Positions 1,031 through 23,329 of a stretch of 64,000 nucleotides of DNA are shown one piece after another. The notes below the pieces were generated by a model. It saw nothing but the letters and a program-made list of their open reading frames with translations. It searched no databases and was not told where the DNA came from. Position 1 is the stretch's first letter. Every line of letters begins with the position of its first letter. This DNA comes from Mesorhizobium sp. B2-1-8 (GTDB lineage: Bacteria > Pseudomonadota > Alphaproteobacteria > Rhizobiales > Rhizobiaceae), in assembly GCF_006442545.2 (NCBI RefSeq), contig NZ_CP083952.1:1853501-1917500 (forward strand), written 5' to 3'. A program made the translations under genes and the position numbers.

Positions 1031-2467
1031 TCAGCCGATGACTGCGAGCGGCCGATTTGCCGCCGCCGATGTCCGCAAGGCGGCGAGACAGCCGAGAATG
1101 CCGAGCGGCACGAAGGCAAGGAACAGCCAGCTCGCGACACCAGCGGCCGCGTCATGGTTCAGCCCTTGCGAAAAACCGCTGGCATTGGCAACGATGCCGG
1201 CAAGGGCGGCACCCACGGCATAGCCGATGCGCTGCATGGTCGGCACCGCGGCCGAAGCGATGGTCTGCTCGTCGTCCGGCGCGGAGGCGACGATGACGCG
1301 GGTCAGGAACGGCCAGGCAATGCCGAAACCGCCGCCCTGCAGCAGGGCACAGACCAGGATCAGCGGGATAGAGCCCAGCGGTATGGTGTAGGCGAAGCCG
1401 GCGATGCCCGTCGCGATCATCAGTGCGCCGCAGACGATGATCATACGTTCACGCCGTGGCGGCGCGTTGGCGACGAGGATCGACAGGATCGACCAGGCGA
1501 TCGATTCGGCGGCGATGATATAGCCGGTGGTCAGCAGCGGAATGTCGTGCAGGCTGGTCAGCAGCAGCGGCCCGTAGACGCCGAAGGAGCAGGTCGCGAT
1601 GGAAAAGGCGGCGACCATGGTCATGCCGGCGCCGACCGGCGTGCGCCATGAGAACAGCCGCGCCGGGAACAGCCGGGAACGCGGTTTTAGCGCGTCGATG
1701 TAGAAGAACAGCGCCAGGCTTGCCAGGCCCAGCACGATCAGCAGCGAGGAACGCAGCAGGGCGATGTCAACGCCGGCCGAGGCAATCAGCACCACGGCAA
1801 TGGCTAGGCAGCCAAGCGCCGTGAACGGGAAGGGCGGCGCCTTGCCATTGCTCGCGCTGGGTCTTGTCGCTTCCGGCGTGTCGAGTACGAGGAAGCTTGC
1901 CAGCGCCATGGCGGTGCCGCCGAGGGTGAAGACGCCGAAGGCCCAGCGCCAGGACAGCAATTCGGTAGTGATCGCGCCGAGTAGCGGACCGCTGAAGGCA
2001 GCGACGCCCCAGATCGCCGACATGATGCCGAAAAGCTGCGGCCAGATGGCACGCGAGAACAGCCGTTCGACCGAGACGAAGGCCAGCGACACCAGCGCGC
2101 CGCCGCCAAGACCCTCGATCAGCCGGCCGGCCAGGAACAATTGCATGGACGGCGAGGTGGCGCAGATCAGCGCCCCGGCCGCGTAGAGCAGGGCCGCGAC
2201 CACCATGTTGGTGCGCAGCGCCACATAGCTCACCAGCCGTCCGGCCGCGGCACCGGCGACGATGGCGCCGAGTTCGTAGATCGCCAGCGACCAGCCGACG
2301 AGCTGCACGCCGGCCAGTTCGCCGACCATGGCCGGCATGACGGTGGCCACCATAGTCTCATTGGTGGCGTGCAGCAGGATGCCGAGGCTGATGAAGCAGA
2401 AGCGCGCCAGGTCGCCGCTCGCCCACAATGCGCGCCAATCAACCCTGTTTGTGCTGATTTCAGTCAT
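1031..2467 (-). CDS. MFS transporter, DHA2-like drug/metabolite exporter
   Basis: A 478-residue integral membrane protein with roughly 14 hydrophobic segments, starting TEISTNRVDWRALW. Features of proton-driven MFS exporters are visible: an acidic residue in an early helix (LHATNETMVATVMPAM), a helix-5-like stretch (GIMSAIWGVAAFSGPLLGA) and repeated glycine-rich helices. The open frame extends to 2596, but the ATG at 2467 follows an AGGGGA Shine-Dalgarno, and the extension would overlap the operator-like dyad at 2591-2608, so 2467 is preferred. The gene is single, convergent with kdpE. The dyad suggests ligand-induced expression by a MerR-family activator, although no such regulator gene is in the window. 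The substrate cannot be told. Confidence 0.85.
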   Translation of the reverse strand: MTEISTNRVDWRALWASGDLARFCFISLGILLHATNETMVATVMPAMVGELAGVQLVGWSLAIYELGAIVAGAAAGRLVSYVALRTNMVVAALLYAAGALICATSPSMQLFLAGRLIEGLGGGALVSLAFVSVERLFSRAIWPQLFGIMSAIWGVAAFSGPLLGAITTELLSWRWAFGVFTLGGTAMALASFLVLDTPEATRPSASNGKAPPFPFTALGCLAIAVVLIASAGVDIALLRSSLLIVLGLASLALFFYIDALKPRSRLFPARLFSWRTPVGAGMTMVAAFSIATCSFGVYGPLLLTSLHDIPLLTTGYIIAAESIAWSILSILVANAPPRRERMIIVCGALMIATGIAGFAYTIPLGSIPLILVCALLQGGGFGIAWPFLTRVIVASAPDDEQTIASAAVPTMQRIGYAVGAALAGIVANASGFSQGLNHDAAAGVASWLFLAFVPLGILGCLAALRTSAAANRPLAVIG

Positions 2468-2590
2468 GTCCATCCCCTGCATTTGCATATCGCGATGCAG
2501 CCGCACGGCGCCAGGAGCCAGCGCGAGGCTTCCGGCAGGACCATGCGCGCGGCGTCGAGACGCGGCCTTGCTCGGGGCGGGTTTGTAGAA

Positions 2591-2608
2591 CCTCAACCTC
2601 GGTTGAGC
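2591..2608 (-). promoter_or_regulatory. MerR/SoxR-type operator dyad in the MFS gene promoter
   Basis: An 18-bp near-perfect dyad, CCTCAACC-TC-GGTTGAGC, has inner arms 2592-2598 and 2601-2607. Its outline (CCTCAA ... TTGAG) resembles SoxR and other MerR-family operators. On the minus strand it sits between a TTGAGC -35 candidate and a TACAAA -10 candidate separated by 19 bp, the overlong spacing typical of MerR-activated promoters. It lies 124 bp upstream of the MFS start. Identity of the regulator is inference. Confidence 0.55.
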
Positions 2609-2707
2609 TCAAGGGATTTTTCAAGATATGTTTGAGCCAGCGTCGACCTGGATGGACTGCTTGCCGGCAGGTTGCAGTGATGGCAGCGGCTATGGCTGTC
2701 CTCGTCC

Positions 2708-2752
2708 GCCAAAAATCAAACGGCGCGGAACCATCTGTCCGGTTCCGCGCCG
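2708..2752 (-). terminator. Rho-independent terminator of the DUF992 gene
   Basis: A perfect 12-bp GC-rich stem (2721-2732 with 2741-2752) and 8-nt loop is followed on the minus strand by TTTGATTTTT. It lies 37 nt beyond the stop of the minus-strand gene at 2789-3265. Confidence 0.85.
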
Positions 2753-2788
2753 CAGAGTGAAGGGCCTGGAGCCGAGGCTCCAAACCAC

Positions 2789-3265
2789 TTATTTGAGCGA
2801 GTGGATCAGCTCCAGCGAAGTCACCGCCACGGCGAGATTGACGCCGGTCTGCGCCTGGACGCTGAGCGGCTCCAGCATGAAGGCGCTGTCGAAGCCACCG
2901 ACCAGCAGGTTGGCGCCGCCGCCGGTCACGACGCTCGCCTCGGCGTTGACGCCGTAGTAGCTGCCGGCAAGGTCGCCCGCGTCACGGTCGCGGGTCGCGG
3001 CAAAAACCGCCCAGATGAGCTGGCCCTGATGCGTCTTGCCGACATCGACGCCGAGCTTGGAGATGACGCCGGTATAAATTTCCGACGGCCCGTGATGATG
3101 GGGCCGGAAGACGCAGGACACGCCCTTGTTGGAGGTCACGATATAGCCGGTGCCGCCATCGATGGTGCAGTCGAGCGTGCCGAGTTGCAACCTGCCGGCG
3201 CTGGCCGGGGCGGCAGCGAAAACGGTCGTTGCAAGGGCGGCGGCGCAGGCGAGTTTCTTGATCAT
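2789..3265 (-). CDS. DUF992 family secreted protein
   Basis: A 158-residue protein with a clear Sec signal peptide: MIKK, a hydrophobic stretch, then a cleavage-like APASA about residue 23. The mature part has the DUF992 pattern seen widely in Rhizobiales: an early LGTLDCTIDGG, then VSCVF, a His-rich HHHGP, and a glycine-rich C-terminal half with a long hydrophobic beta-like stretch. Two cysteines (about C33 and C51) could form a disulfide in the periplasm. Function is unknown for the family. The gene is monocistronic: it has its own terminator downstream, and an AGGGTCC ribosome-binding region is readable before the ATG. Confidence 0.8.
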   Translation of the reverse strand: MIKKLACAAALATTVFAAAPASAGRLQLGTLDCTIDGGTGYIVTSNKGVSCVFRPHHHGPSEIYTGVISKLGVDVGKTHQGQLIWAVFAATRDRDAGDLAGSYYGVNAEASVVTGGGANLLVGGFDSAFMLEPLSVQAQTGVNLAVAVTSLELIHSLK

Positions 3266-3413
3266 GGGGAGGGTCCTTTCGCAAATCGCTTCGTGATAAC
3301 GGCTTGAATGGTCAGACCGTTCCGCCGAAAACTTGGCGCGAACAAGGCGAGGGTTAACGGCTTGTCGTGGGGGTTAACACAGGGTTGCCGGATTGGCGGC
3401 GATCTTCGGCGCC

Positions 3414-3433
3414 GCGTGTCCTTTCGGACACGC
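3414..3433. repeat. Short palindrome with GAAA-type loop, probable rhizobial intergenic repeat
   Basis: Perfect 8-bp arms GCGTGTCC/GGACACGC flank a 4-nt loop. On the minus strand, downstream of the TPR lipoprotein stop at 3480, it reads as a GAAA-tetraloop hairpin without a T tract. It resembles short hairpins I associate with rhizobial intergenic DNA; only one copy is present here. It may stabilise or end the TPR transcript. Confidence 0.45.
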
Positions 3434-3479
3434 ACACGATGCAGTGGGGCGCTTTGGCGCGGGCCTGACGAAGCCGATG

Positions 3480-4322
3480 TCAGCTGACGCGGGCGAGGCC
3501 GTCCTTGGCCGGCTGGTAGCTGGGGTTGAGGCGCACGGCCTCGCGATAGGCCTTCGCCGCCTTTGCCTTGTCGCCGCGCCGTTCGTAGATCAGCGCCTGG
3601 TTGGCCCAGGCCTCGGCGTTCTGGCCGTCGAGCTTGATGGCCATGTTGAAGTCAGAGAAGGCATTGTCCTCGTCGCCCGTCGCCAGATAGGAGAGGCCAC
3701 GGCCGTTGTAGGGCTCGGCGGCGTCAGGCGCCAGCGAGATGGCGGTCGAGAAATCCTCGATGGCGAATTTGTGCTGGCCCTGGCTCTGATAGATCAGGCC
3801 GCGATTGTGGTAGGCGCGGGCGTCCGTGGTATCGAGCTGGATCGCTTTCTGGAAGTCGTTGAAGGCATCCTGGGTGCGGCCGGCCTTGCGGTAGAGATTG
3901 CCGCGGCCGATATAGGCGGCGTCATAATTGCCGTTGATCTGGATCGAGCGGTTATAGTCGGCGAGTGCGGCTTCCTGGTTGCCGAGGAAGCGCTGGATGA
4001 GGGCCCGATTCGAATAAGCCTGGTAGAAATTCGGGTTGAGCTGGATGGCCTGGTTGAAATCCTTGAGCGCCTGCTGGTACTGGCCGCCGCGGCCATAGGC
4101 CGAACCGCGCACATTGTAGCCTTCGGGATCCTGGGGATTGCGCTGGATGACCGCCGACAGCGAGGAGATGTTCTCGCTCGAGCCTTGCGCCTTGTCGATG
4201 TTGTTGAATTCGCCGGCCGGGCCCGATGTCTGGCAGCCCGCAAGCACCAGTCCGGAAAGCAGGGCCGCTGTCAGGGCGAAACCACGCAATGCGGTTCCGC
4301 GCTCCACGCTTGTTGCGTTCAT
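3480..4322 (-). CDS. TPR-repeat lipoprotein
   Basis: A 280-residue protein starting with a lipoprotein signal; the lipobox LVLAGC places the acylated Cys at residue 30. From about residue 65 to 275 it consists of about six consecutive tetratricopeptide repeats, recognisable by recurring patterns such as AYSNRALIQRFLGNQEAAL and AYHNRGLIYQSQGQ, each ending in DFxxAIxLxP. TPR lipoproteins of this kind act as envelope scaffolds; an NlpI-like role is possible but not shown. The gene stands alone between the DUF992 gene and rpsU, all on the minus strand, with about 140 nt to rpsU containing the rpsU terminator. Confidence 0.85.
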   Translation of the reverse strand: MNATSVERGTALRGFALTAALLSGLVLAGCQTSGPAGEFNNIDKAQGSSENISSLSAVIQRNPQDPEGYNVRGSAYGRGGQYQQALKDFNQAIQLNPNFYQAYSNRALIQRFLGNQEAALADYNRSIQINGNYDAAYIGRGNLYRKAGRTQDAFNDFQKAIQLDTTDARAYHNRGLIYQSQGQHKFAIEDFSTAISLAPDAAEPYNGRGLSYLATGDEDNAFSDFNMAIKLDGQNAEAWANQALIYERRGDKAKAAKAYREAVRLNPSYQPAKDGLARVS

Positions 4323-4382
4323 GTCTGCCCTGTCCTCACTTGCGCCGTCGTTCAGGTCCGGTTCCCCCTCCGGGCCGGGTCA

Positions 4383-4427
4383 CAATCAAAATAAAAGGGT
4401 GGCGGCGATTCCGCATCGCGCCACCCT
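4383..4427 (-). terminator. Rho-independent terminator of rpsU
   Basis: A 9-bp stem (4396-4404 with 4419-4427) is followed on the minus strand by TTTTATTTTGATT, 36 nt past the rpsU stop. Confidence 0.85.
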
Positions 4428-4462
4428 GGTATCCTTCGAAAAGGACGAAATATTGGCAATAA

Positions 4463-4735
4463 TCAGCGCGGCGGACGCGCTGCACCGGCGGCACCGCCAG
4501 CAGCGACCGGACGCGGGGTCATCGGCAGCAGGCCTTCGCGCTGTGCGCGCTTGCGGGCCAGCTTGCGGGCGCGGCGAACGGCTTCGGCCTTTTCACGGGC
4601 GCGCTTCTCGGAAGGCTTCTCGTAGTGGCCGCGCATCTTCATTTCGCGGAAAATGCCTTCGCGCTGCATCTTCTTCTTCAGCGCGCGAAGCGCCTGATCA
4701 ACGTTATTGTCGCGGACGAGTACCTGCACGGGCAA
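4463..4735 (-). CDS. rpsU: 30S ribosomal protein S21
   Basis: A 90-residue basic protein. The start ([20 protein letters not shown]) and the following [13 protein letters not shown] are diagnostic for S21, a small-subunit protein that assists mRNA base pairing at the 3' end of 16S rRNA. The S21 core ends near residue 70. A 15-20 residue Ala/Gly/Pro/Arg-rich tail follows, making it longer than the roughly 70-residue enterobacterial protein, as is usual in Rhizobiales. It is transcribed alone with its own terminator. There is no dnaG-rpoD neighbourhood as in enterics. Confidence 0.95.
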
Positions 4736-4910
4736 TCCTGTCTTTCGGGTTTGATATCAACAGGCAAGCAGCCATAGCCACAAGCCTCCGCGGCGCTCGA
4801 CACCACGAATTGTGGCGGCTGATAGCAGAATCAAGCCTCGCTGTCCACAGTCGAAATGACGGACGACAGCCAAATGCCACGCTCGCCTGGAGACTGGAGA
4901 TAGGTCCCAG

Positions 4911-5297
4911 TTACGCCGTGGCCAGGTGTAGCCGCTCGAAATCCTCGAAGAACTCGCCGTAATCGCAGGTGATCTCCTCGCCGACGGCGATATCCCGGGT
5001 CGCGATGGCGCCGCCATATTGCGAAAAATCGGTGTTCGGGGTCGCCGAATGGTTCATGAAGCGGCCATTGTCGACCTCATAGACCATGAACCCGGGCTTG
5101 TCCGGGCTCGGATAGGCATAACGGTCGAGCAATTCCTTCAGGGGCTGCGGCGCCGTCTCGTATTTGTCCATCGGGATCAGCCGATCGAAATCCGGCTCCA
5201 GGCGCCAGATCGAGGCGCCCTTGCGGATGGGCTCGGCGGCGAACATGCCGACGCCTTCGATTGCGCTCTGGGCGACATAGGTTCGGATCAGCATCAT
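4911..5297 (-). CDS. SET-domain protein (putative lysine methyltransferase)
   Basis: A 128-residue stand-alone SET domain. It begins MMLIRTYVAQSAIEGVGMFA, the usual N-terminal SET strand with a GxG, and contains the two C-terminal SET signatures NHSATPN and GEEITCDYGEFF that form the S-adenosylmethionine pocket and catalytic Tyr. Short bacterial SET proteins are common in Mesorhizobium and Bradyrhizobium; their substrates are mostly unknown. The frame remains open to 5501, but the upstream part has no SET homology and runs into the SDR remnant, so the ATG pair at 5294/5297 is taken as start. The Shine-Dalgarno is weak, so the exact start is uncertain. It is a monocistronic gene. Confidence 0.8.
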   Translation of the reverse strand: MMLIRTYVAQSAIEGVGMFAAEPIRKGASIWRLEPDFDRLIPMDKYETAPQPLKELLDRYAYPSPDKPGFMVYEVDNGRFMNHSATPNTDFSQYGGAIATRDIAVGEEITCDYGEFFEDFERLHLATA

Positions 5298-5424
5298 GGT
5301 TCCAGGACCCGTCTTGGCAAGAAGACCCGTTTCGACAGAAACGGAATCGCCAAATCGCGCCGAAAAAGCAAGACCGGCGGCCTGCGTCACAACGACGAAC
5401 AGGCCTGATCCCCGTAAAAATCCT

Positions 5425-5560
5425 TCACGTCCGGTTGATCGACACGCCGCCATCTGCAAACAGCGCGGTTCCCGTGGTGAAGCTCGAGGCGTCGGAGGCA
5501 AGGTAGAGCGCGGAGCGGGCGATCTCTTGCGGCTGGGCCATCCGCTTCAGGAGCAGCCAC
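5425..5560 (-). pseudogene. Remnant of a short-chain dehydrogenase/reductase (C-terminal end only)
   Basis: Reading the minus strand in the frame that ends with TGA at 5425-5427 gives about 42 residues of a classical SDR C-terminus: [20 protein letters not shown], then [18 protein letters not shown], then INRT-stop. This matches the family's P.EIA..v.fLaSd.as..tG....DGG pattern. The homology stops abruptly near 5560, no start codon or Rossmann region precedes it, and only about 26 nt separate it from the next gene. It is therefore a decayed fragment and not a gene. A deletion joining this tail to the YrdB-like gene is the simplest history. Confidence 0.75.
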
Positions 5561-5586
5561 CCGATACCTGCAGAGGTTCGCACCAA

Positions 5587-5958
5587 CTATTGCCGCAGCA
5601 GCCATGCCAGACGGTCTAGCGAGAACGCGTAGGTGATGACGATCAGCACGGCCATGATGATGCCCATAGCGGTATGGCCTGCCACATGGAAACCCGCGGC
5701 ACCGCCGAACAGGACGACGAATTCCAGCGCCAGCCTGACAGCTCCAGGCACCGGCACCGGAGCCCGGCCTGACCGGCTCGGATCATTGAGGACCGCGAAG
5801 GTACCCCATGCCGCGGCTGAGGCGAGCGGCAACGCGATGGCGAGGACCCAACGCCACGCTCCGTCCGAGAGGCTCCAGCCTGCCATGCCGAGGCCAAGCA
5901 AGGCGGCAAGCTCCAGCAGGAAGCGCAATGTAAGATTCCACCAGGCGTTGCCCACCAT
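5587..5958 (-). CDS. YrdB-like small membrane protein (DUF2568)
   Basis: A 123-residue protein with four hydrophobic segments: about residues 8-28, 35-55, 72-92 and 97-117. It begins WWNLTLRFLLELAALLGLG, typical of the YrdB/DUF2568 family, and has the middle WGTFAVLNDPSRSG stretch that family members share (W....PddP.R). Function is unknown. It lies beside the SDR remnant, suggesting it sits at the edge of a deleted region. The ATG at 5956-5958 is the only reasonable start. Confidence 0.7.
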   Translation of the reverse strand: MVGNAWWNLTLRFLLELAALLGLGMAGWSLSDGAWRWVLAIALPLASAAAWGTFAVLNDPSRSGRAPVPVPGAVRLALEFVVLFGGAAGFHVAGHTAMGIIMAVLIVITYAFSLDRLAWLLRQ

Positions 5959-6159: not shown

Positions 6160-7413
6160 GTGAAGAAATACTCTGTATTCGCCATCGCCCGCGAGGCCAT
6201 GCGCGGCCACAAGGGCTGGGAGGAACAATGGTCCTCGCCGGAGCCGAAGAAGGAGTACGATGTCATCATCGTCGGCGCCGGCGGCCACGGCCTGGCGACG
6301 GCCTATTATCTGGCCACCGTGCACGGCATCACCAATGTCGCGGTCCTGGAAAAGGGCTGGCTGGGTGGCGGAAACACCGGCCGCAACACCACCATCATCC
6401 GCTCCAACTATCTCTATGACGAGAGCGCCGGCATCTACGACCACGCTTTGAAACTGTGGGACGGGCTGAGCCAGGAACTCAACTACAACGTCATGTATTC
6501 GGCTCGCGGCGTCATGATGCTGGCGCACAATGTGCACGACATCCAGGTGCTGAAGCGCCATGTCCACGCCAACCGGCTGAACGGCATCGACAATGAATGG
6601 CTGACGCCGGAACAGGCCAAGGAATTCTGCCCGCCGCTCAACACCTCGAAAGACGCGCGCTATCCGGTCGTCGGGGCTGCCTTGCAGCGCCGCGGCGGCA
6701 CGGCGCGCCATGACGCGGTCGCCTGGGGTTATGCGCGCGGGGCTTCGGCGCGCGGCGTCCACATCATCCAGAACTGCGAGGTCACTGGCGTCAAGCGGGC
6801 TGCCAACGGCGCGGTGACCGGCGTCGACACGACGCGCGGCTTCATCGGCGCCAAGAAGGTCGGCGTCGTCGCCGCCGGACACTCCTCCGTCATCATGAAC
6901 ATGGCAGGCGTGCGCATGCCGCTGGAGAGCTATCCGCTGCAGGCGCTGGTGTCGGAGCCGGTCAAGCCGGTCGTGCCCTGCGTTGTGATGTCGAACACGG
7001 TCCACGCCTATATCTCGCAGTCCGACAAGGGCGAACTGGTGATCGGCGCCGGCACCGACCAGTATGTTTCCTATTCGCAGACCGGCGGGCTTCACATCTT
7101 GCAGCATACGCTGGACGCCATCTGCGAGATGTTCCCGGTCTTCACGCGCATGAAGATGCTGCGCTCGTGGGGCGGCATCGTCGACGTGACGCCCGACCGC
7201 TCGCCGATCCTGGCCAAGACGCCGGTGCCAGGCCTCTATGTCAATTGCGGCTGGGGCACGGGCGGCTTCAAGGCCACGCCTGGCTCGGGCCATGTCTTTG
7301 CACACACCATCGCCAAGGACGATCCGCATCCGATCAACGCGCCCTTCACCATCGAACGCTTCCGCACCGGCCGCCTCATCGACGAGGCTGCTGCGGCGGC
7401 GGTGGCGCACTGA
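6160..7413 (+). CDS. soxB: Sarcosine oxidase beta subunit
   Basis: A 417-residue FAD enzyme subunit of heterotetrameric sarcosine oxidase, which converts sarcosine, O2 and tetrahydrofolate to glycine, methylene-THF and H2O2. The FAD-binding dinucleotide fold is visible as [19 protein letters not shown], followed by [20 protein letters not shown], a region characteristic of SoxB that carries the covalent-flavin histidine in characterised enzymes; that His is not evident in this exact segment. The C-terminal [14 protein letters not shown] is also typical. The start is a GTG at 6160 with GAGG 7 nt upstream and the usual [12 protein letters not shown] opening; a TTG at 6145 is less likely. It heads the soxBDAG set. 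The 129-nt gap to soxD is unusually large for this operon. Confidence 0.93.
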
Positions 7414-7542
7414 TGATGACCGAGATGGCTGTGGCGATGCCGCTGATGCTGGCGGGGCTCCATTGATGACCATGGGCCAGAAGCTTTGCGATCAACCCGC
7501 CGGCGCGCGCGTCGGCCACGGCGAATTGTAGGAACAAACAGA

Positions 7543-7854
7543 ATGCTTCTCATCCGCTGCCCCTATTGCGAGGAAGAGCGCCCGGAACTCGAATTCCGCA
7601 ACGCCGGCGAGGCGCATATAGCGCGCTCGGCCAACATGGCCGGCGAGAGCGACGACGATTTCGAGAAGTTCTTCTTCATCCGCTCCAATCCCAAGGGCAT
7701 CATCTATGAACGCTGGCGGCACATGCATGGCTGCGCGCGCTTCTTCAACGCGGTGCGCGACACCGTCACCGACAAGTTCGTCATGACCTACAAGGCCGGC
7801 GAGCCGAAACCTTCCAAGCTGCCCAATAACTCCAACGAAGGGCTTGCCAAATGA
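7543..7854 (+). CDS. soxD: Sarcosine oxidase delta subunit
   Basis: A 103-residue zinc-binding small subunit. The N-terminal CPYCEEERPELEF and the downstream HMHGCARFF supply Cys/His ligands for the zinc in SoxD proteins, and the centre FFIRSNPKGIIYERW is conserved in the family. In the heterotetramer the delta subunit contacts alpha. The ATG at 7543 is preceded by TAGGA; the longer open frame from 7486 has an Arg-rich shadow start. Its stop overlaps the soxA start (ATGA at 7851), indicating translational coupling. The preceding gap (7414-7542) contains only a 17-codon reading frame beginning [10 protein letters not shown], probably not a gene. Confidence 0.92.
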   Translation: MLLIRCPYCEEERPELEFRNAGEAHIARSANMAGESDDDFEKFFFIRSNPKGIIYERWRHMHGCARFFNAVRDTVTDKFVMTYKAGEPKPSKLPNNSNEGLAK

Positions 7855-10836
7855 GCGGCGCGTTGCGTATTCCGGGCGCCGGACGCCTCAGCCAGGCCAA
7901 GGCCGCCCGCTTCAGCTTCGACGGCCAGGCCTATGCCGGCATCGAGGGCGACACATTGGCCTCGGCGCTGCTTGCCAATGGCGTGCATCTGGTCGGCCGT
8001 TCGTTCAAGTACCACCGCCCGCGCGGCATCCTGTCGGCCGGCGCGGAAGAGCCCAACGCTCTGGTGCAGATCGTGCGTGATGACGCGCGCAAGACGCCGA
8101 ACGTGCGCGCGACGGTGCAGGAACTCTATGACGGGCTCGCCGCCAATTCGCAGAACCGCTGGCCGTCGCTGTCCTTCGATGTCGGTGCGGTCAACGATTT
8201 GGCATCGCCGCTGTTTTCGGCCGGTTTCTACTACAAGACCTTCATGTGGCCGAAGGCGGCCTGGAAGAGCCTCTACGAACCGAAGATCCGCGAAGCCGCC
8301 GGCCTTGGCGTCTCTCCCGACAGGCCGGATCCAGACCATTATTCCTCGCGCTACGCCCATTGCGACGTTCTGGTGCTGGGCGGTGGTGCCGCCGGCATCG
8401 CGGCGGCACTTGCCGCGGCAGAGACCGGCGTGCGCGTCATCCTCGCGGACGAGCAGGCCGAGTTCGGCGGCAGCCTGCGCTTCGAGTCTGGTGCGAAAAT
8501 CGACGGCCAGGGCGGCTTTGCCTGGGCGCAAGCGGCGATCGCCAGGCTGAGTGCGATGGACAATGTCCGCGTGCTGCCGCGCACCACGGCGTTCGGCTAT
8601 TACGCGCAGAATTTCGTCGGCCTGGTCGAGCGCGTCAGCGATCACCTGAAGGCTCCCGGTCACGACCTGCCGCGCGAGCGGCTCTGGCAGGTCCGCGCCA
8701 AGCGCGTGGTGCTGGCCTCCGGCGCCATCGAGCGCCACATGGTGTTCGCCAACAACGACCGGCCAGGCGTCATGCTGGCCGGCGCGGCGCGCACCTTCCT
8801 CAATCACTATGGTGTCGCGGTCGGAAAAAATGTCGGTGTCTACACCGCCAATGACTCGGCCTACGGCGCCGCGATCGACCTGAAGAAGGCCGGCGTCAAC
8901 GTGGCGGCGATCGTCGATCTGCGTGACAACCCGACCGGCCCGGTGATCGACGAGGCGAGGGCGCTCGGCATCGAGATCAATTTCGGCCGTGCTGTGATCC
9001 GCGCCGGCGGCAAGCTGCGCGTGTCGTCGATGACGGTGCAGCCGAAGAATGGCGGCGGCGAACGCACCATCGCGGTCGATGCGATCCTGATGTCGGCCGG
9101 CTGGACGCCGTCGGTGCATCTGTTCTCGCAGTCGCGCGGCAAGGTCGCCTTCAACGACGAGACCAAGCGCTTCGTGCCGGGCACCTATGCGCAGGACTGC
9201 GTCTCGGTCGGCGCCTGCAACGGCACTGACGGCCTGTCGGCAACGGTTGACGAAGCCTATGCGGCGGGCGCCAAGGCGGCCAAGGATGCTGGCGCGAAAG
9301 CCGCCAAAGGTGTGAAGCCGAAGGTGGACGCCTCGGAGAGCTGGTCGCGCGGCATGCTGGGTGCGGCACCCGGCGCCGGGCCGGACACGACGGTGAAAGC
9401 CTTCGTCGATTTCCAGAACGACGTCACCGCCAAGGATATCCGCCAGGCGGTGCATGAAGGCATGCGCTCGATCGAGCATGTCAAGCGCTTCACCACCAAC
9501 GGCATGGCGACCGACCAGGGCAAGACGTCCAACATGCACGGGCTGGCGATTGCCGCCGAGACGCTGGGCAAGCCGATCCCCGAGGTCGGCCTGACCACGT
9601 TCCGCGCGCCGTACACGCCGGTCACCTTCGGCGCGATCGTCAGCCACGCGCGTGGGCCGCTGTTCGACCCGACCCGCAAGACGGCAATCCATCCCTGGGC
9701 CGAGGCGCAAGGCGCGGTGTTCGAGGATGTCGGCCAATGGAAGCGCGCCTGGTATTTCCCGAAAGCCGGCGAGGACATGCATGCGGCGGTCGACCGCGAA
9801 TGCGTCGCCGTCCGCAACCAGGCCGGCCTGTTCGATGCCTCGACGCTGGGCAAGATAGAAGTGGTCGGGCCGGATGCGGCCAAATTCATGGAACTGCTCT
9901 ACACCAACCCGTGGGAGAAGCTGGAGCCAGGCCGCTGCCGCTATGGCATCATGCTGCGCGAGGACGGCTTCATCTATGATGACGGTGTCGTCGGCAGGCT
10001 GGCGCCGGACCGTTTCCATGTCACCACGACGACGGGCGGCGCGCCGCGCGTCATGAACCACATGGAGGATTACCTCCAGACCGAGTTCCCGCATCTCAAT
10101 GTCTGGCTGACCTCGATCACCGAGCAGTGGGCGGTCATCGCCGTGCAGGGTCCGAAATCCCGCGACATCATCGCGCCGCTGGTCGAAGGCATCGACATGT
10201 CCGATGAAGCGCTGCCGCATATGTCGGTGCGCGAGGGCAAGATCTGCGGCGTGCCGACACGGCTGTTTCGCATGTCGTTCACCGGCGAGCGCGGTTTCGA
10301 GGTCAATGTGCCGGCCGACCATGGCCAGGCGGTCTGGGAAGCGCTGTGGGCCGAGGGCCAGAAGCATGGCGCCACCGCGTACGGCACCGAGGCGATGCAC
10401 GTGTTGCGCGCCGAGAAGGGCTATATCATCGTCGGCCAGGATACGGACGGCACGGTGACGCCCAACGATGCCGGTCTCGACTGGGCGGTCGGCAAGAAGA
10501 AGGCCGACTTCGTCGGCATTCGCGGCCTGACGCGGCCTGACCTCGTGGCCAAAGGCCGCAAGCAACTGGTCGGCCTCAAAACCAAGGACCCCAAGGTGGT
10601 GCTGGAAGAAGGCGCGCAGATCGTCGAGGATCCGAAGCAGGCGATTCCGATGAAGATGATCGGCCATGTCACATCGAGTTATTGGTCGCAAAATTGCGGC
10701 CGTTCGATCGCGCTGGCGCTGGTCGCCGGCGGGCGTGACCGGATGGGCGATACGCTCTACGTGCCGATGCCGAACGGGGTGATCGAAGTGGAGGTTACCG
10801 GCATGGTGTTCTTCGACGAGACGGGAGGGCGCCTCA

Positions 10837-19964: not shown

Positions 19965-21131
19965 ATGACGATTTCCAAGCCGGTTTTCGACCGTTTGGGG
20001 CTGGGTATGTGGGTCGGGGCATTCCTGGTCGTTCTCGGCCTGGTGTTATGGTCGCCCTACACGCGCACGGTGATGCAGGCCTACGGATATGGCAGCGAGG
20101 CATTCCTCAGCGGCCAGCCACTGTACAATCTCCAGTCGGAGATGGGCTATCTCTACGCGCCGGCCTTCGCCGCGCTCTACATTCCGGTGCTGAAGCTTGG
20201 ACCGTATCTGGGCGGCGTGGTGTGGCATGCGGTGGGCTTCGCGGCGCTCACCTTCGCGGCGATGCGGCAGGTGCGCAAGCTCGGCGGTGAAGAATTGCCG
20301 TGGCTGCTTTCCTTCGGGCTCTTCCTTGCCTTGCCGATGGCGCTGGGTGCCGTCCGCAACGGCCAGGCGACGATCCTCCTGACCGGTGCCTGCTGGCTCC
20401 TGACCCTGTCTGCGCTCGAAGGGCGGCGCGCCGAGACCTTCTTCTGGGCTTCGGTCGCCATCATCGCCAAACCAACCGCGATCATCATGCTGTTGCTGGT
20501 GGGGGCCTTGCGCCTGCGGCTGATACCCGTGCTCGCGCTGGCGGTGTTGTTCGTGCTCGCCATACCATATGCCTTCGCACCTGCAGGCTACGTCAACGAG
20601 CAGTACGGTGATTTCGCCCGCATGCTGACTTCTATGGCCGTCGACAAGTCCGGCCGCTTCGTCCCCAGCGACTTCACGGCGCCTTTCACCTCGGTGGGAG
20701 TGCCCATGCCTGAATTCGCCGCCACGATCGTGCGCGTCGTCGTGGCACTGCTCACGCTATCGATCGTCCTCTGGTTCGACCGCAAGCTGCGGCCTGGAAT
20801 GGCCGGACTGGCGATCTTCCTGACGGCCGCCTTCTACATGTGCGTCTTCAATCCGCGCGTCGAGCCAAATACCTATGCCATGATCGCCGTGCCTGCCGGT
20901 CTCGCCATCGCCATACTGTGGCGGGAGGAGCGTGGCGGTGTCCTGGCTTCGGTGCTGTCGACGGTATTGTTCCTCACAGGTTTGACCGGCGTCGAGCGCC
21001 ACATGCATGATTTCTTCTACCCCTGGTTCCGGCCGCTCGCGGTCACCTTCATCGCCTGTTCGCTGATCTGGTGGTTCTGGGCCAAGGCGCGCCAAAAGAC
21101 ACTGAATGTCGGACCCGTTGCACATGGCTGA
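19965..21131 (+). CDS. GT87/DUF2029-like polyprenol-phosphate-sugar glycosyltransferase
   Basis: A 388-residue integral membrane protein with about 10 transmembrane helices. The first periplasmic loop carries the sequence GYGSEAFLSGQPLY, with acidic and aromatic residues as in GT-C-fold enzymes, followed by MGYLYAPAF and later ALGAVRNGQATILLTG, wording typical of the DUF2029/GT87 family. GT87 members (for example PimE) transfer sugars from polyprenyl phosphate outside the membrane. The chosen ATG at 19965 follows GGGG; a GTG lies five codons upstream. It overlaps the GtrB-like gene, which fits it being the final transferase of the cassette. The acceptor is unknown. Confidence 0.78.
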   Translation: MTISKPVFDRLGLGMWVGAFLVVLGLVLWSPYTRTVMQAYGYGSEAFLSGQPLYNLQSEMGYLYAPAFAALYIPVLKLGPYLGGVVWHAVGFAALTFAAMRQVRKLGGEELPWLLSFGLFLALPMALGAVRNGQATILLTGACWLLTLSALEGRRAETFFWASVAIIAKPTAIIMLLLVGALRLRLIPVLALAVLFVLAIPYAFAPAGYVNEQYGDFARMLTSMAVDKSGRFVPSDFTAPFTSVGVPMPEFAATIVRVVVALLTLSIVLWFDRKLRPGMAGLAIFLTAAFYMCVFNPRVEPNTYAMIAVPAGLAIAILWREERGGVLASVLSTVLFLTGLTGVERHMHDFFYPWFRPLAVTFIACSLIWWFWAKARQKTLNVGPVAHG

Positions 21132-22107
21132 GTTGCGTCAGAAACTCGATATCGTGGCGCCCTTCTTCAACGAGGCGCAATCGGCGTCGGCCTTTGCCGC
21201 GCTGCTCGAGAGACTCGAGGAGGCGGTATCAAGCCGTTTCGGCATGGCCGTCCACAAGATCCTGGTCGACGACGGCAGCCGCGACGATGGCGCTGGGCGA
21301 TTTTCGCAGGCCCTGTCGGGATCGTGGGAGATCGTCCGCCTCAGCCGCAATTTCGGCAAGGAGGTCGCGGTGCTTGCCGGCCTCGACCACTCGCGCGGCG
21401 ACATGGTGCTGATCATGGATTCAGACCTGCAGCATTCCATGGACATCAGCCTGCAGATGATTGCCGAGTTGGTGGAGCACCCCGATATAGACGTCGTCTA
21501 CGCCCAGAACGACCGGCGCGAGGCCAGCTGGCGGCGCAGCCAGTTGGCGAAGCTGTTTTATAGCCTGATCAACAGCAGCCAGCGTTTCGACATCCCCGAG
21601 AACGCGGGAGACTTTCGTGTCATGCGCGGTGCCGTCGCGCGCGCGCTGACCAGCCTGCGCGACAAGCGGCGCTTCAACAAGGGCCTGTTCGCCTGGGCAG
21701 GCTTCCGCCAGAAAGCCATACCCTATTCGCCGGAAAACCGCGCCATCGGCACATCGAAATGGAGCCGGCTCAACCTGATCGCCTTTTCGCTGGAAGGCTT
21801 TACGTCATTTTCGGTCATCCCTCTGCGCATCATCAGCCTGAGCGGGATGCTGGCGGCGCTGGCGGGAGGCGTTTACGGCGCCAAGGTGTTCTTCGAAGTG
21901 ATGTTCTACGGGATCGCCGTGCCTGGCTATCCCAGCCTGATGGTCGCCGTCGTCCTGCTCGGTGGCCTCAACCTCACCTTGCTCGGCCTGATCGGCGAAT
22001 ATGTCTGGGTTACACTCTCGGAAAGCAAGGACCGGCCAGTCTATCTCGTGCGCGATGTCCTGCGCAGCGACGTGTCGGACAGGCCGGCAGGCGCGTCCCG
22101 GACATGA
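21106..22107 (+). CDS. GtrB/ArnC-like undecaprenyl-phosphate glycosyltransferase
   Basis: A 333-residue GT2-family enzyme. The N-terminal catalytic domain has the nucleotide-sugar motif PFFNE, the metal-binding region DDGSRDD, RNFGKEVAVLAGLDH and MDSDLQHS. Two C-terminal transmembrane helices (about residues 230-255 and 270-300) end in GEYVWVTLSESKDRPVYLV, as in GtrB/YfdH and ArnC. Such enzymes load a sugar from a nucleotide donor onto undecaprenyl phosphate on the cytoplasmic face. Two in-frame ATGs (21106 and 21124) both overlap the preceding gene; neither has a strong Shine-Dalgarno. The stop overlaps the deacetylase start (ATGA). Confidence 0.88.
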   Translation: MSDPLHMAELRQKLDIVAPFFNEAQSASAFAALLERLEEAVSSRFGMAVHKILVDDGSRDDGAGRFSQALSGSWEIVRLSRNFGKEVAVLAGLDHSRGDMVLIMDSDLQHSMDISLQMIAELVEHPDIDVVYAQNDRREASWRRSQLAKLFYSLINSSQRFDIPENAGDFRVMRGAVARALTSLRDKRRFNKGLFAWAGFRQKAIPYSPENRAIGTSKWSRLNLIAFSLEGFTSFSVIPLRIISLSGMLAALAGGVYGAKVFFEVMFYGIAVPGYPSLMVAVVLLGGLNLTLLGLIGEYVWVTLSESKDRPVYLVRDVLRSDVSDRPAGASRT

Positions 22108-22922
22108 CGCGGCGTATTCGCCTGATCGCCGACGACTACGGCCTGGCGCCAGGGGTTTGCGCCGGGATTCTAGACCTGCTCGACCGGCGACGCCTTACCG
22201 GCACCAGTTGCATGACCGGTTTTCCGGAATGGACCGAGGCGGCAGCGCGCATAAAGCCACTGTGCGGCCGCGCGGCGATCGGGCTGCACCTGACCCTCAC
22301 GGACCAGCCAGCCGTCACGGGCAAATCGAGCCTGGCGCCTGATGGCCGGCTGCCGCCGCTTCGTTCTCTGGCCCTGCCGGTCCTGCGCGGCCGGATCGAC
22401 AAACGCGACGTCCATGCCGAACTCGACGCGCAGTACAGTCGTTTCGTCGAGGCGCTGGGCCGTAAGCCCGACTTCATCGACGGTCATCAGCACGTGCATT
22501 TCCTGCCCGTCGTGCGCGGATGGCTGCGGGCGCATTTTCGCGAAGCTGCCGGCAGGCCGGTGTTGCGCGGCGCTCCGGCGCTCAGCGATGCCGCCGCCGC
22601 ACCGAAGATCGCCGCGATCGCTGCCGTGGCCGCCGGCTTCAACCAATCGATGCAGCGCGCCGGCTTTGCCGTTTGGAAGCCGCTCGCAGGCATCTATGAC
22701 TGGCGGCAGCCCGAAAAGTTTGCCCCATTGCTGGAGGCTGCGGTCGAAGCGTTGCCGGATCGTGGGTTGTTCATGTGCCACCCCGGCCATGTCGACGACA
22801 CGCTGCGCGCGCGCGACCCGATGCAAGGCGTGCGCGAAGTGGAGTTCGGGGTACTGGCCTCGGATGCGTTCGGCGCACGCCTGGCCCGCGCCGGTGTCGA
22901 GATCATGGACGGCAAGGGATGA
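22104..22922 (+). CDS. YdjC/ChbG/NaxD-type carbohydrate deacetylase
   Basis: A 272-residue enzyme of the YdjC superfamily. Metal-binding and catalytic residues are visible: Asp10-Asp11 in ADDYGLAPG, His62 in GLHLTLT and the His cluster at 128-132 in DGHQHVHFLP. The C-terminal FMCHPGHVDD is also typical. Members remove N-acetyl groups from amino sugars; NaxD of Francisella acts on undecaprenyl-phosphate-GalNAc before the sugar is attached to lipid A. The position here, sandwiched by ATGA overlaps between GtrB- and GtrA-like genes, argues for a lipid-linked amino-sugar substrate. HpnK of hopanoid pathways is related, but no hopanoid genes are nearby. Confidence 0.83.
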   Translation: MTRRIRLIADDYGLAPGVCAGILDLLDRRRLTGTSCMTGFPEWTEAAARIKPLCGRAAIGLHLTLTDQPAVTGKSSLAPDGRLPPLRSLALPVLRGRIDKRDVHAELDAQYSRFVEALGRKPDFIDGHQHVHFLPVVRGWLRAHFREAAGRPVLRGAPALSDAAAAPKIAAIAAVAAGFNQSMQRAGFAVWKPLAGIYDWRQPEKFAPLLEAAVEALPDRGLFMCHPGHVDDTLRARDPMQGVREVEFGVLASDAFGARLARAGVEIMDGKG

Positions 22923-23329
22923 GCGGCGCCGAACAGCCCCGGCGTTCGACCGGCAGCAAGATCGTCCGTTTTGCGCTTGTCGGACTGGCGAATACGGCCA
23001 TCGATCTTGCCGGCTTTTCCCTGCTGCTCAAGCTGCATGTCCCGCCGCTATCCGCCAATGTCGTCTCGTGGTCGATCGCCGTGATCTTCTCTTTCGTGGC
23101 GAATGGCTTCTGGTCGTTCGAGCGCAATCACGCCATCCGGCTGCATGACGCCTTCCTGCGGTTCGTCTCGCTCGGAGCGCTGATTTCGCTCGGCGTCTCC
23201 AGCCTGTCGATCGCACTCTTCGCCGGTATCGCGGGCGTGTGGCCGGCAAAGATCGGCGGCGTCATCGTGGCGGCTGTGCTGAACTTTATTGCCGCGCGCT
23301 GGTCGATCGAAGGCCGGCTGCTGAAATAG
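22919..23329 (+). CDS. GtrA-family membrane protein (putative lipid-linked sugar flippase)
   Basis: A 136-residue protein with four transmembrane helices. The first reads VRFALVGLANTAIDLAGF, the hallmark GtrA opening, and the middle NVVSWSIAVIFSFVANGFWS contains the conserved N..W.F. pattern. GtrA proteins are thought to help flip undecaprenyl-phosphate-linked sugars across the inner membrane. It is the fourth gene of the coupled cassette (ATGA overlap with the deacetylase) and ends 7 nt from the convergent RND pump gene. Confidence 0.87.
   Translation: MSGAEQPRRSTGSKIVRFALVGLANTAIDLAGFSLLLKLHVPPLSANVVSWSIAVIFSFVANGFWSFERNHAIRLHDAFLRFVSLGALISLGVSSLSIALFAGIAGVWPAKIGGVIVAAVLNFIAARWSIEGRLLK

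Follow-up and report, generated by a model that had tools for sequence, protein, structure and literature searches.

A conserved GT87-GtrB-YdjC-GtrA gene block of Mesorhizobium as a candidate amino-sugar transfer module of the cell envelope

The window, i.e. the whole stretch of 64,000 nucleotides of Mesorhizobium sp. B2-1-8 that was analyzed, contains at 19965-23329 four overlapping genes, at the position and on the (plus) strand given in the original prediction, which was made from the letters of this DNA. In order, they are as follows.

19965..21131, plus strand: GT87 GT-C-fold membrane transferase; 388 residues from the ATG at 19965; Pfam GT87, 36.2 bits (cut-off 25), E 7e-9
21106..22107, plus strand: GtrB/ArnC-type polyprenyl-phosphate glycosyltransferase; 333 residues; Glycos_transf_2 (PF00535), 77.7 bits (cut-off 23.3)
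22104..22922, plus strand: YdjC-family metal-dependent deacetylase; 272 residues; PF04794, 164 bits (cut-off 29.7)
22919..23329, plus strand: GtrA-type small membrane protein; 136 residues; PF04138 (GtrA_DPMS_TM), 67.7 bits (cut-off 26.1)

The four predicted family assignments hold, all being over the curated Pfam cut-offs, while no NCBIfam model exceeded its own cut-off for any of the four proteins. Successive genes overlap by 26, 4 and 4 nucleotides, the last two overlaps being ATGA; with the alternative GtrB start at the next ATG (21124), GT87 and GtrB still overlap by 8 nucleotides. The best solved relative of a GtrB profile (seven rows) is the glycosyltransferase sll0501 (E 2e-68), which we take to be of the GtrB type; the profile also matches ArnC-named chains (E 5e-30 and weaker), and D105 and D107 are invariant in all seven rows.

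The four genes are a conserved accessory module. Orthologues of the GT87 enzyme, sought in 61 genomes (its own, 36 of the same genus and 24 of the same order), occur in 23, every one in the genus, and the YdjC profile matches 25, namely the same 23 and, more weakly, two outside it. Within the 37 genus genomes GT87 and YdjC are both present in 23 and both absent from 14, an agreement of 37/37. In a wider genus set, 82 of 146 genomes have GT87 (E <= 1e-100), a count of GT87 copies with or without the cassette. All four genes stand in order at 61 of 62 named loci, which were drawn by exact peptide patterns, such that records may be left out, and which are mostly from Mesorhizobium, with M. huakuii, M. 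ciceri, M. loti, Corticibacterium and Oryzicola among them; with three of six other loci, the block is present in 64 of 68. The gene coupling proposed in the original prediction thus withstood the synteny check, and a chance operon is ruled out by the co-occurrence and the retained order. Four of the named loci have a stop within the GtrB alignment, which falls at query residue 2 in two of them and at 327-329 (of 333) in the other two; these loci are counted as intact.

The surroundings of the block are also conserved, an acyl-CoA dehydrogenase gene (acd) and a quinone oxidoreductase gene (qor) lying upstream in 59 of the 64 loci; downstream, most loci have an RND pump, an rpiR-type regulator or both. 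A close qor (83-87% identity) is present in eight of the 14 block-free genus genomes, its next gene being RND in five and rpiR in three, and was not found in the remaining six. At these empty sites the block was either lost or never present. The ratios of nonsynonymous to synonymous substitution rates (dN/dS), obtained against six named relatives, are 0.07-0.24 for the four cassette genes and 0.03-0.13 for the flanking qor, RND and acd genes, implying that the block is constrained, but less so than its neighbors; decaying genes are ruled out by these values.

On the basis of the observed families, fold, gene coupling, co-occurrence, purifying selection and conservation of donor-phosphate residues, we propose, with a probability of about 0.62, that the four genes form a module for amino-sugar transfer at the periplasmic face, in which a sugar is loaded, deacetylated, flipped and transferred. 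GtrB would load an N-acetylated hexose, probably N-acetylhexosamine (HexNAc) from uridine diphosphate (UDP)-HexNAc, on polyprenyl phosphate at the cytoplasmic face; YdjC would strip the acetyl group from the lipid-linked sugar in the cytoplasm, giving polyprenyl-phosphate-hexosamine with a free amine; GtrA would flip this intermediate, or help to flip it; and GT87 would move the hexosamine from polyprenyl phosphate to an envelope acceptor at the periplasmic face. The ADD motif of YdjC starts at residue 9, leaving no room for a signal peptide, which argues for cytoplasmic action. The sequence of steps is that of the original prediction and is supported as an inference, including with respect to the sugar, deacetylation before flipping and the flippase role of GtrA.

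The cassette would work like two described systems, with GT87 replacing the ArnT-type enzyme. In Francisella, FlmF2, NaxD and FlmK are a polyprenyl-phosphate sugar synthase, a YdjC-family deacetylase and a GT-C transferase of the GT83 type, respectively; in Bordetella, LgmA is ArnC-like, LgmB is an ArnT-like GT83 enzyme, LgmC is YdjC/NaxD-like and LgmD is GtrA-like. The cassette has the same three enzyme roles as the Francisella system and, like lgmA-lgmB-lgmC-lgmD, it is a four-gene cluster, but its final enzyme is GT87, in contrast with the GT83-type FlmK and the ArnT-like Bordetella enzyme; the likeness to Lgm is one of description, not of directly compared sequences. Excerpts of the Bordetella pertussis reports state that lgmA, lgmB and lgmC are needed for lipid A glucosamine, with lgmD of the same cluster being dispensable (PMC4993483), that deletion of the lgm locus abolishes the +161 peaks (PMC11895810) and that LgmB is an inner-membrane enzyme adding glucosamine to phosphates (PMC11401268); for Francisella, an excerpt describes galactosamine on lipid A and FlmF2 as arnC-like (PMC8149597). 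Of the features of an Lgm/Flm-NaxD-type system, the cassette has the GtrB/ArnC-type enzyme, as judged by PF00535 and by its relation to sll0501 and the ArnC-named structures, and a deacetylase with intact motifs. No ArnT-like (GT83, Pfam PMT_2) final transferase is in the cluster: PMT_2 has no match at E <= 1 in the cassette's final enzyme, and the three PMT_2 genes of this genome sit elsewhere on contig C1. Because this feature was looked for and is absent, we do not file the cassette as a member of that type. The novelty that had been suggested is narrowed: since a four-gene hexosamine cluster is already known from Bordetella in the cited excerpts (PMC4993483, PMC11895810), it is the GT87 exchange that is new and not the idea of the cassette. 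Word matches, titles and abstract starts in the open-licence literature gave no description of this gene combination. Separately, at locus L256 of the same genome (5657-8192, minus strand) a small membrane protein with four predicted spans (273 residues) adjoins a PMT_2 enzyme (563 residues), sizes that resemble those given in an excerpt for M. loti lpxE and its galacturonic acid (GalA)-transferase, 271 and 549 residues (PMC5644692).

In having GtrA and GtrB together with a third enzyme of the GT-C type, the cassette also resembles the three-component Gtr systems that decorate O-antigen, as described in excerpts of PMC11127046. A Gtr system consists of these three components alone, whereas here a YdjC deacetylase is built in and GT87 replaces the serotype-specific Gtr enzyme. 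The cassette may nonetheless act in a Gtr-like manner, adding to the core or O-antigen polysaccharide of lipopolysaccharide (LPS) a side-branch hexosamine that is positively charged through the deacetylase. The patchy presence within the genus, resembling serotype variation, is consistent with this proposal, as is the shared layout; Gtr systems are, however, described in those excerpts without a deacetylase, and the recognized GT-C neighbors of related YdjC genes are of the PMT_2 type, so that we regard this narrower form of the module as possible but rather doubtful.

The YdjC residues D10, D11, H62, H128 and H226 are invariant in seven of seven rows, as are the motifs DD, GLHL, DGHQHVH and CHPG, which we take to form the active site; the five residues align with identical letters in the chitooligosaccharide deacetylase 7vi8, H226 doing so only in a weak second stretch. 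Beyond the genus, 46 of the 385 genomes searched in the class (including this one) and 91 of 398 in the phylum (including this one and eight other genus members) had a match to the YdjC profile. Among 40 YdjC loci outside the genus (L207-L246; mostly the stronger matches, with some loci stopping at contig ends), GtrB lies within 3.5 kb of YdjC in 35, as judged by local profiles and counting L226, where it shares a frame with a PMT_2-like part; the linkage of YdjC with GtrB is general. A PMT_2-type GT-C enzyme is near YdjC in 15 of the 40 and GT87 in none, in accord with the earlier proposal that GT87 stands here where an ArnT/FlmK-type enzyme stands elsewhere. Ten of these loci supplied the PMT_2 profile, with Pfam PMT_2 or PMT over cut-off in nine and just under in L217; we take Pfam PMT_2 to stand for ArnT-like GT83.

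These results bear on the proposal that YdjC deacetylates a soluble sugar, or one derived from chitin, and is in the operon by chance, with GT87, GtrB and GtrA moving an unmodified sugar. The solved relatives found for YdjC, a chitooligosaccharide deacetylase and two unassigned YdjC proteins, fit with it, and the NCBIfam chitin disaccharide deacetylase model (PRK02134) does match; its 86.9 bits are, however, far below the cut-off of 227, on which ground ChbG membership was rejected. Given also the exceptionless co-occurrence of GT87 and YdjC in the genus and the presence of GtrB beside YdjC in most loci of other lineages, we consider this explanation improbable. Two further YdjC proteins are of note in their own right. 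A second YdjC-family gene of the same genome (L248, 1501-2250, minus strand, contig C2) scores 17.7 bits with the cassette YdjC profile and has no recognized GtrB adjoining; and a YdjC protein 66% identical to that of the cassette (P0112) is filed under Mycolicibacterium aubagnense, on a 6.5 Mb contig, being either a mislabelled record or a transfer.

Two of the outside loci have unusual arrangements beside YdjC. At L226 (3189-6005, minus strand) one frame of 939 residues matches both the GtrB and PMT_2 profiles and may be a naturally occurring fusion of loading enzyme and transferase, whereas at L236 (2484-4712, minus strand) a YfhO-family membrane protein (PF09586) lies between GtrA and GtrB and may be a third kind of final transferase. 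In genus g80, probably Kaistia, GtrB and YdjC are together with GT87 convergent beside them in all five genomes that have GT87, GtrA being recognized in three of the five; for one g80 genome the GT87 assignment was verified with Pfam. The Kaistia-type GT87 matched three of the 385 genomes of the class, i.e. this one, G557 (245.6 bits) and, weakly, G583 (21.3 bits); no YdjC outside the genus scored higher than that of G557 (220 bits).

Phylogenetic analysis of YdjC employed 61 rows, a weak partial match (L203) being dropped, and included six of the seven HpnK proteins over cut-off, the other (L260) being omitted as it has a stop. The cassette YdjC proteins group with those of GtrB and PMT_2 loci, apart from Escherichia coli ChbG and the six HpnK rows, which lie outside and of which the latter form a clade of their own (100/99), although the mutual placement of ChbG and HpnK is unsure owing to a long-branch warning. 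That the block might belong to a hopanoid head-group or other lipid glycosylation pathway, of an HpnI/HpnK-like kind, is thus very improbable: HpnK is a relative of YdjC, and its model (TIGR03473) matches at 50.2 bits, but the cut-off is 232.6 and the HpnK rows are a separate clade; HpnK membership was rejected on both counts. The Mesorhizobium-type YdjC (seven rows, 100/100) is separate from the Kaistia-type (five rows), which lies beside L235, a locus with PMT_2. Joint grouping of the 12 GT87-linked YdjC rows was rejected in an approximately unbiased (AU) test (p 0.0032), in which the grouping was by partner gene and the p value was not blind, an earlier tree having been seen before testing. 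A GT87 tree of 38 rows, from which P0161, whose end is scrambled, was left out, places the Mesorhizobium and Kaistia-type sets as deeply branching but weakly supported sister clades (84/61), and the solo GT87 paralogues that it includes (L039, L043 and L044) fall within the Mesorhizobium clade. The YdjC tree suggests that the GT87-YdjC pairing arose more than once; repeated partner replacement is an alternative to multiple uptake of GT87.

The final enzyme is a GT87 member both by its Pfam score, which is over cut-off, and by its predicted structure, which is closest to the fold of PimE (14-16% identity), a polyprenyl-phosphate-mannose enzyme, and which also matches PIG-U, a non-catalytic protein. 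A Protein Data Bank (PDB) profile search with a close GT87 alignment gave designed repeat proteins only, clearly by chance; a wider profile reached PimE at E 4e-6, with the same designed repeats scoring slightly better (3e-6), and because of this the link with PimE rests on the fold. All 64 cassette rows, in which one genome is counted twice, share Y64, Q134 and K169, and these residues align with PimE Y92, Q163 and K195, which are its donor-phosphate residues according to an excerpt of PMC12041525. Mycobacterial PimE differs from the cassette enzyme in sequence, given the low identity, in its partner genes and in having the catalytic D58.

Several observations weigh against the proposed module. 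The cassette GT87 has no acidic residue in the first loop at the place of PimE D58, which tips the first juxtamembrane helix and is proposed to act as the catalytic base. In the GT87 of the window, modelled with a loop at 30-36 and a helix at 37-48, D9 and E45 have no acidic residue between them; among the 64 cassette rows, 34 carry D or E at position 32, and E45 is variable. The pairing with D58 is by position and not by residue-level superposition. By analogy with PIG-U, an enzyme lacking the base could be non-catalytic, or it could work otherwise. Solo GT87 paralogues, apart from GtrB, YdjC and GtrA, are present in three cassette-bearing genomes (L039, 8001-9164; L043, 4001-5116, and L044, 3995-5098; L204, about 6962-8170, and L205, about 1448-2632), and hence a GT87 of the cassette type need not act with YdjC. 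The substrate specificity of YdjC is unreadable from sequence. In 25 of the 40 outside YdjC loci no GT-C enzyme of either type was recognized within 3.5 kb, and in G557 YdjC and GT87 are found on separate contigs, each about 4.8 kb long and lacking GtrB. Promoter and terminator scans gave nothing above chance (promoter-like sites, 1 versus 0.8 expected). Also, in the excerpted reports, lipid A of M. loti MAFF303099 and of M. huakuii has GalA and phosphate with no added hexosamine (PMC4103559, PMC5644692), such that the amino-sugar lipid A implied by the Francisella comparison of the original prediction is not borne out for these strains.

With respect to the acceptor, our guess is that LPS (lipid A 4'-phosphate, core or O-chain) accounts for somewhat over half of the probability and another envelope glycan or lipid for the rest. 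The lipid A of M. loti MAFF303099 is described in an excerpt as comprising phosphate, two diaminoglucose units and GalA, and that of M. huakuii (the strain being printed as IFO1254) as almost identical (PMC4103559); the same backbone is given for M. huakuii IFO 15243T (PMC5644692, in excerpt). The M. huakuii NBRC 15243 record (L062) has all four genes, with no stop in the aligned parts. We presume that the IFO collection became NBRC. M. loti MAFF303099 is not among the named loci, a set that may omit records, and no report of lipid A galactosamine in Mesorhizobium was found in the literature examined. The decoration is either absent in those growths, lost in acid isolation or directed elsewhere. 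A narrower form of the module, in which GT87 puts hexosamine on the Mesorhizobium lipid A 4'-phosphate, in a manner limited by growth conditions or with loss in the acid isolation step, is a serious but minority candidate. It would fit with the grouping of the cassette YdjC with those of GtrB/PMT_2 loci and away from HpnK and ChbG, with the action of Bordetella lgmA-C on lipid A phosphates (excerpts of PMC4993483, PMC11895810), with the use of weak acid hydrolysis to prepare M. loti lipid A (PMC4103559, in excerpt) and, perhaps, with the missing base of GT87, a phosphate acceptor being already ionised; the reported lipid A structures and the presence of the cassette in the M. huakuii record stand against it.

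More tentatively, GT87 may have replaced an ArnT-type enzyme more than once, in Mesorhizobium and again in the genus resembling Kaistia. The result would be a subfamily of GT-C enzymes able to transfer sugars with a free amine from polyprenyl phosphate while lacking the customary catalytic aspartate, perhaps via an already ionised phosphate acceptor or the invariant E300 (of an NPRxE motif); the molecule that is modified may be an envelope component distinct from the lipid A reported to date. Sugars with a free amine make the outer membrane less negatively charged and can thereby alter resistance to cationic peptides, including the nodule peptides of some legumes. If the proposed module is correct, Mesorhizobium has an accessory route to free-amine envelope sugars unseen in reported lipid A structures, and the cassette is a natural test for enzymology, i.e. 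of a GT87 enzyme with an amino-sugar donor and without the GT-C aspartate.

The sole named locus without the block, L106, has two neighboring GT87 genes with GtrA and GtrB (1141-5700); YdjC was not recognized in the 12.9 kb examined, and this locus is perhaps a version of the system without deacetylation.

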